Shown: positions 39,909 to 39,930 of the stretch, piece after piece
Layout of the letters: each line of letters opens with the position of its first letter
How positions within the stretch are numbered: position 1 is the stretch's first letter
Source of the DNA: Erysipelothrix sp.
GTDB lineage: Bacteria > Bacillota_I > Bacilli_A > Erysipelotrichales > Erysipelotrichaceae
Length of the DNA: 51,263 nucleotides
NCBI GenBank assembly: GCA_012512595.1
Contig: JAAZDW010000006.1
Span: 1-51,263, forward strand
Reading direction: 5' to 3'
Program-made: the position numbers and the translations under genes
The notes under the pieces: generated by a model
Database searches by the model: none
Seen by the model: the letters and a program-made list of their open reading frames with translations, nothing else
Told to the model about the DNA's origin: nothing

Positions 39909-39930
39909 AAAAAAACACCTCCATGAGGCG
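39909..39930 (-). promoter_or_regulatory. TPP riboswitch output hairpin hiding the thiT Shine-Dalgarno
   Basis: On the minus strand CGCCTC (39925-39930), a 3-base loop and GAGGTG (39916-39921) form a 6-bp stem that includes the thiT GGAGG. Seven U residues (39909-39915) follow and abut the ATG. This can sequester the ribosome site and may also act as a short terminator. Confidence 0.75.

Follow-up and report, generated by a model that had tools for sequence, protein, structure and literature searches.

A thiamine pyrophosphate riboswitch upstream of thiT in Erysipelothrix with a predicted dual expression platform conserved at thiT across the Erysipelotrichaceae

The thiT leader

The stretch of DNA analyzed here, the window, is a contig of 51,263 nucleotides from an Erysipelothrix sp. 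genome (JAAZDW010000006.1), and carries on its minus strand the gene thiT (39908-39384, start codon AUG at 39908-39906), coding for the S component of an energy-coupling factor (ECF) thiamine transporter (Pfam PF09515 Thia_YuaJ, 57.5 bits). The gene is preceded by a thiamine pyrophosphate (TPP) riboswitch aptamer, or THI element, at 40031-39934 on the same strand (Rfam RF00059, 74 bits against a cut-off of 54.3, E = 8.5e-13, full model length). The Thia_YuaJ match places this TPP leader in front of a gene for thiamine uptake, as expected for thiamine gene control. The sequence 3' of the aptamer reads AGUUCUAUUUUUGAAUUUCUGCGCCUCAUGGAGGUGUUUUUUUAUG. It contains, on the minus strand, a terminator-like hairpin, GCGCCUC-AUG-GAGGUGU (39931-39915), with the Shine-Dalgarno (SD) sequence GGAGG (39922-39918) in its 3' arm, then a tract of seven U residues (U7, 39915-39909) and, directly after it, the AUG. 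The hairpin has 7 base pairs (bp), including two G-U pairs, the outermost of which takes the first U of U7, and its end lies 6 nucleotides (nt) from the AUG. No second SD was found between U7 and the AUG. A hairpin and U-run of the kind that form an intrinsic terminator thus follow the aptamer, with the SD inside the hairpin. An initial annotation had described the hairpin with GGAGG, exactly seven U residues and then AUG, and the description holds; the interval that it gave, 39909-39930, misses the first hairpin base and leaves the AUG outside. The genome is a partial metagenome-assembled genome (MAG) of 954,570 bp in 35 contigs (66% complete, 32% GC). Our scans covered all of it but 424 bases of contig 34, and the gene set consisted of 917 genes, with starts called by a simple script.

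Two mutually exclusive folds and a proposed mechanism

The fold of the whole thiT leader was uninformative (z = -0.56) because the ligand-bound aptamer fold is not the free-energy minimum, and local and constrained folds were used in its place; all energies are equilibrium estimates that leave out tertiary contacts. Locally, the hairpin folds with -8.8 kcal/mol (z = -2.7), a value matched by 2 of 200 shuffled sequences. Folding gave a predicted antiterminator, or anti-sequestor, GCGUAGGGAGUUC...GAAUUUCUGCGC (39959-39928, minus strand), a helix of 12 bp that is built with the 3' strand of the aptamer, GCGUAGG, and reaches into the 5' arm of the terminator. Since the antiterminator and the terminator 5' arm both claim GCGC (39931-39928), the two predicted helices are mutually exclusive. 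Computed without ligand, the antiterminator state is favored over the aptamer together with the terminator by 7.6 kcal/mol. Binding of TPP with nanomolar affinity could bridge a gap of this size.

These folds suggest how the leader may work. Without TPP, the GCGUAGG strand of the aptamer would pair with the downstream UCUGCGC, the 5' arm of the terminator would be occupied, RNA polymerase would read through and the SD would be freed of the terminator hairpin. When TPP is bound, the aptamer would keep the 3' strand, the GCGCCUC/GAGGUGU hairpin would form, and RNA polymerase would halt in U7, directly before the thiT AUG; transcripts that escape would carry only an SD locked in the same hairpin. 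Our preferred reading is that of a TPP-OFF riboswitch at thiT whose expression platform is dual, acting on transcription and translation, and we give it a probability of about 0.77.

Several points weigh against this reading. The terminator is short, and two of its pairs are G-U. In readthrough transcripts of this species, the SD may pair anew with the U-run and the AUG (-5.4 kcal/mol); this alternative pairing depends on local bases, and with only -1.8 kcal/mol in one other sequence of the family it may not be general. Moreover, sequence does not tell apart the shares of termination and of translation in the control of thiT.

The shortness of the hairpin, and the position of the only SD wholly inside it, would also suit control of translation only, in which the hairpin hides the SD and U7 is a mere spacer to the AUG. 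However, a U-run of at least six residues ending no more than 3 nt from the start codon is found at just 7 of the 917 genes, yet is kept at thiT throughout the family; such a rare feature, retained in this position, points to termination. In the TPP riboswitch of Lactococcus lactis thiT, RSthiT, expression became constitutive when part of the U stretch preceding the AUG was replaced (PMC8862789), again a poor fit to a spacer. We regard control of translation only as quite improbable. The L. lactis leader shares with the one described here the TPP aptamer, the thiT gene and a U stretch right before the AUG (SD-U8-AUG; published primer, sense strand, AAAAAGGAGUUUUUUUUAUG), and differs in its hairpin, AAAAAGGAG as against GGAGGUG here, the primer showing only part of the L. 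lactis hairpin.

Conservation of the merged layout at thiT

We compared TPP leaders in 25 genomes of the Erysipelotrichaceae, the genome studied and 24 relatives. The merged layout, with the SD in the 3' arm of the terminator, was found at 20 of 21 thiT leaders and at 0 of 14 other TPP leaders (Fisher P = 6e-9). All 14 of the latter, which precede thiC, ABC transporter and other genes as assigned by their N-terminal sequence, have the ordinary layout. The Thia_YuaJ family was matched by 21/21 thiT proteins, 20 from this family and one from a genome of a sister family (G035). In that sister family (f2), where thiT genes were assigned by N-terminal sequence only, the thiT leaders have ordinary terminators, with the exception of the one in G035. 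With a strict pattern, the merged arrangement was detected in 90 of the 245 genomes of the family, representing 40 of 60 genera, and outside the family in only two genomes of the class (G035 and G400). Searching the GTDB genome collection with GCCTN{3,16}GGAGGTGTTTTTTTATG returned 103 stretches; among the 80 listed, 56 are TPP-thiT leaders, with record names mostly from Erysipelotrichaceae, Holdemania, Bulleidia, Solobacterium, Faecalicoccus, Erysipelothrix and similar. Among cultured species of the family, Holdemania massiliensis and Bulleidia extructa (L207 and L169) carry this leader.

The alternative folds recur as well. Every one of 70 distinct family leaders has a predicted antiterminator that uses at least 5 pairs with the aptamer strand and overlaps the terminator, as in the window, together with a U-run of 5-8 residues (median energies, -9.1 kcal/mol for the terminator and -14.6 kcal/mol for the antiterminator). 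The linkers vary in length and sequence and still fold, with 27 of 40 within the best 10% of their shuffles, and the distance from the last conserved strand of the aptamer to the AUG ranges from 41 to 82 nt. Covariation in the terminator stem was not usable, since neither the SD nor the aptamer strand varies in sequence. As far as leader sequences can tell, the merged layout is fixed for thiT across the Erysipelotrichaceae. The initial annotation had proposed that termination and SD sequestration are merged in one element; for thiT, this part of the proposal stands.

The same comparison bears on the possibility that thiT is controlled at the level of transcription only, by an ordinary intrinsic terminator pushed against the start codon by compaction of the leader. 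Burial of the SD would then be without regulatory effect, because nearly all repressed transcripts would end before the AUG. The conserved U-run of thiT agrees with this, as do the L. lactis data, in which a change in the U-tract alone abolishes repression (PMC8862789), and the other leaders of this genome, which are plain terminator switches. However, compaction by itself gives no reason why thiT should be singled out, and the SD is buried at nearly all thiT leaders of the family whereas it is separate at every other TPP leader. We consider control of transcription only to be unlikely and retain the dual platform as the preferred reading.

The same layout, with independent sequences, also occurs at TPP leaders of more distant genomes (L374, L375 and L376). 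In one of these, from a small-genome relative (L374, genome G247), a TPP riboswitch is followed by the hairpin ATCCTC-TTTTA-GGAGGAT, U7 and AUG; the open reading frame (ORF) downstream is lipoprotein-like and may need TGA to be read as Trp.

The design at thiT has been described before. Barrick and Breaker (2007; PMC2258182) described a "dual transcription and translation attenuation" platform, in which no more than 10 nt separate the terminator from the start codon, credited the layout to an earlier TPP study and predicted the platform for TPP riboswitches too. The principle is the same here, where it is linked to thiT and maintained throughout a single family. The thiT leader of Enterococcus faecium behaved as translational/transcriptional (PMC12632268). 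Naville and Gautheret (2010; PMC2965389), whose examples are likewise terminator hairpins that also sequester the ribosome-binding site, noted that such bifunctional terminators had not been demonstrated experimentally at that date; theirs, however, are attenuators of Escherichia coli that lie 15 nt or less from the start codon. The leader of thiT adds a new, well-conserved instance. It provides a family-wide comparative case for a platform that the literature mostly assigns by distance rules, and the same genomes hold merged thiT leaders and separate other TPP leaders, which serve as internal controls. It thereby makes testable whether burying the SD in the terminator adds repression beyond that due to termination.

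The metN T-box

At the other end of the window, also on the minus strand, a T-box leader (1531-1284; Rfam RF00230, 126 bits against a cut-off of 93) precedes metN (1263-244), coding for the ATPase of a methionine ABC transporter (Pfam ABC_tran and NIL). The leader has the T-box structure with its terminator/antiterminator and a Met specifier, AUG, at 1443-1441 as read from the Rfam alignment. The terminator core (1297-1270) is ACUUCGUCCUA-UACGAU-UAGGAGGAAGU, with AGGAGG (1279-1274) in its 3' arm; it holds the only SD of metN and is followed by U7 (1270-1264) and, directly, by the AUG (1263-1261). A G-G mismatch lies at its base, where AGGACG, the exact complement of CGUCCU, became AGGAGG and completed the SD.

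That the metN T-box and the thiT TPP leader share the order hairpin with SD, U7 and AUG, as initially noted, was borne out. The loose pattern GAGGN{0,5}TTTTTTNATG has 2 matches in the 954,570-bp genome, these two, and a reversed-pattern control has 0. Both fall within the 17 sensor leaders of the 917 genes, which gives a hypergeometric P = 3e-4. This value is optimistic: the sites had already been seen when the pattern was written, and sensor leaders carry terminator U-runs anyway. We used the pattern for this count within the genome only; it is noisy in relatives, where many matches are not gene starts or lack a sensor.

In another genome of the genus (G001), the metN T-box (L067) is ordinary: AUAGGAUGGAGUUUUUUUUAUUAGGAGGUGUUGAGGGAUG comprises a terminator with U8, then a separate AGGAGGT. 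No metN T-box was recognized in G002. Conservation of the merged layout at metN within the genus was therefore rejected. Since the T-box of the nearest relative is ordinary, the layout at metN appears to be a local event or coincidence, a thiT-like end reached independently in this genome. It probably arose by loss of the stretch with the separate SD, and may have come about by chance as the leader was shortened. Could chance without function account for the arrangement as a whole? U-runs are common because the genome is 32% GC, and the origin just suggested for metN would fit. However, at thiT the layout is kept across the family while linkers and loops change, which already contradicts chance there, and we give this possibility next to no weight.

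With its terminator and Met specifier, the metN leader resembles the transcriptional T-boxes of RF00230, and it differs from them in that its only SD also lies within the terminator. In a review, T-boxes are assigned to one of two classes, transcriptional or translational (PMC7583486), and for that reason less documentation exists for the metN variant than for that of thiT.

Other sensors

The initial annotation had taken the likeness of two unrelated sensors to suggest a lineage-wide expression platform, in which riboswitches and T-boxes share a merged terminator/SD output. Both merged sites of this genome do lie in sensor leaders, and a third may exist at a thrS T-box (see below), but the other sensors do not follow. 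Rfam scans of the genome identified 12 T-boxes (9 above the cut-off), 1 TPP, 2 purine, 1 S-adenosylmethionine (SAM) and 1 fluoride leader. Apart from metN, 10 of 11 T-boxes have an ordinary terminator and U-run with the SD 3' of it; at the SAM leader the terminator is ordinary and the SD lies apart from it, further downstream; the fluoride leader possesses a terminator and an SD of its own; and a terminator directly joined through a U-run to AUG was not found at the 2 purine leaders. Among 65 T-boxes sampled, an SD before the U-run was seen only at metN and possibly thrS of this genome. A T-box pattern matched 12 of 395 genomes of the class, and most matches were false: in only 5 does the AUG lead into a long ORF with the SD embedded in the terminator, these being the present metN, two GNAT and two HD-domain genes. 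Together with the ordinary metN T-box of the same genus and the non-thiT TPP leaders, none of them merged, these observations led us to reject a platform common to all sensors, which the other leaders of this genome already contradict and which we consider very improbable.

In the ambiguous thrS T-box (contig 28:72645-72844, L131), the terminator includes GGGGGAG and is followed by U7, A and an in-frame AUG. Relatives start about 6 codons later, at an internal AUG after a separate SD, and the site could be either a start called wrongly or a third case of merging. At an HD-domain gene in two genera (L369 and L370) and at a GNAT acetyltransferase gene in two genomes (L360 and L361), the only SD lies within the T-box terminator, ahead of U7/U8 and AUG; these are independent merged T-boxes.

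A broader scenario can be put forward tentatively, and we hold it to be rather doubtful. The Erysipelotrichaceae may have fixed a compact three-way switch, in which the SD is the terminator 3' arm and the ligand-binding strand is part of the antiterminator, for thiT alone, as thiT would need leak-proof repression. The metN T-box, and perhaps that of thrS, would have converged on the same output after losing the stretch with the separate SD; such a T-box would control transcription as well as translation.

Further leaders

One of the purine riboswitches (L107:5350-5451, minus strand, contig 15) lies before an adenosine-deaminase-like gene, and the ability of its segment TATTTTTTCTTC to pair with the SD, GGAGGAAATA, hints at control of translation. 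The order hairpin, SD, U7 and AUG was also seen with no recognized sensor. In Clostridia MAGs (L186, L208, L216, L223, L225 and L235), it occurs before a small membrane protein, with GCCTTCGCAT..ATGCGGAGGTGTTTTTTTATG in common, and the protein at L225 matches DUF3792. Genes for a helix-hairpin-helix (ComEA-like) protein and for DprA (L333 and L334, in G008) share TTTTTTTAGGATTTTCAC..TTTTACGTATATA..AGGAGGTGTTTTTTTATG, a block that is almost the same in both and lies immediately upstream of the start codon; it may be a signal of a competence regulon. Finally, a gene for a glycosyl hydrolase of family 1 (L290, in G027) is preceded by the hairpin CCTCTTTGCATG..CATGCAAGGAGG, U7 and AUG, and this hairpin is a possible target of an antiterminator protein.
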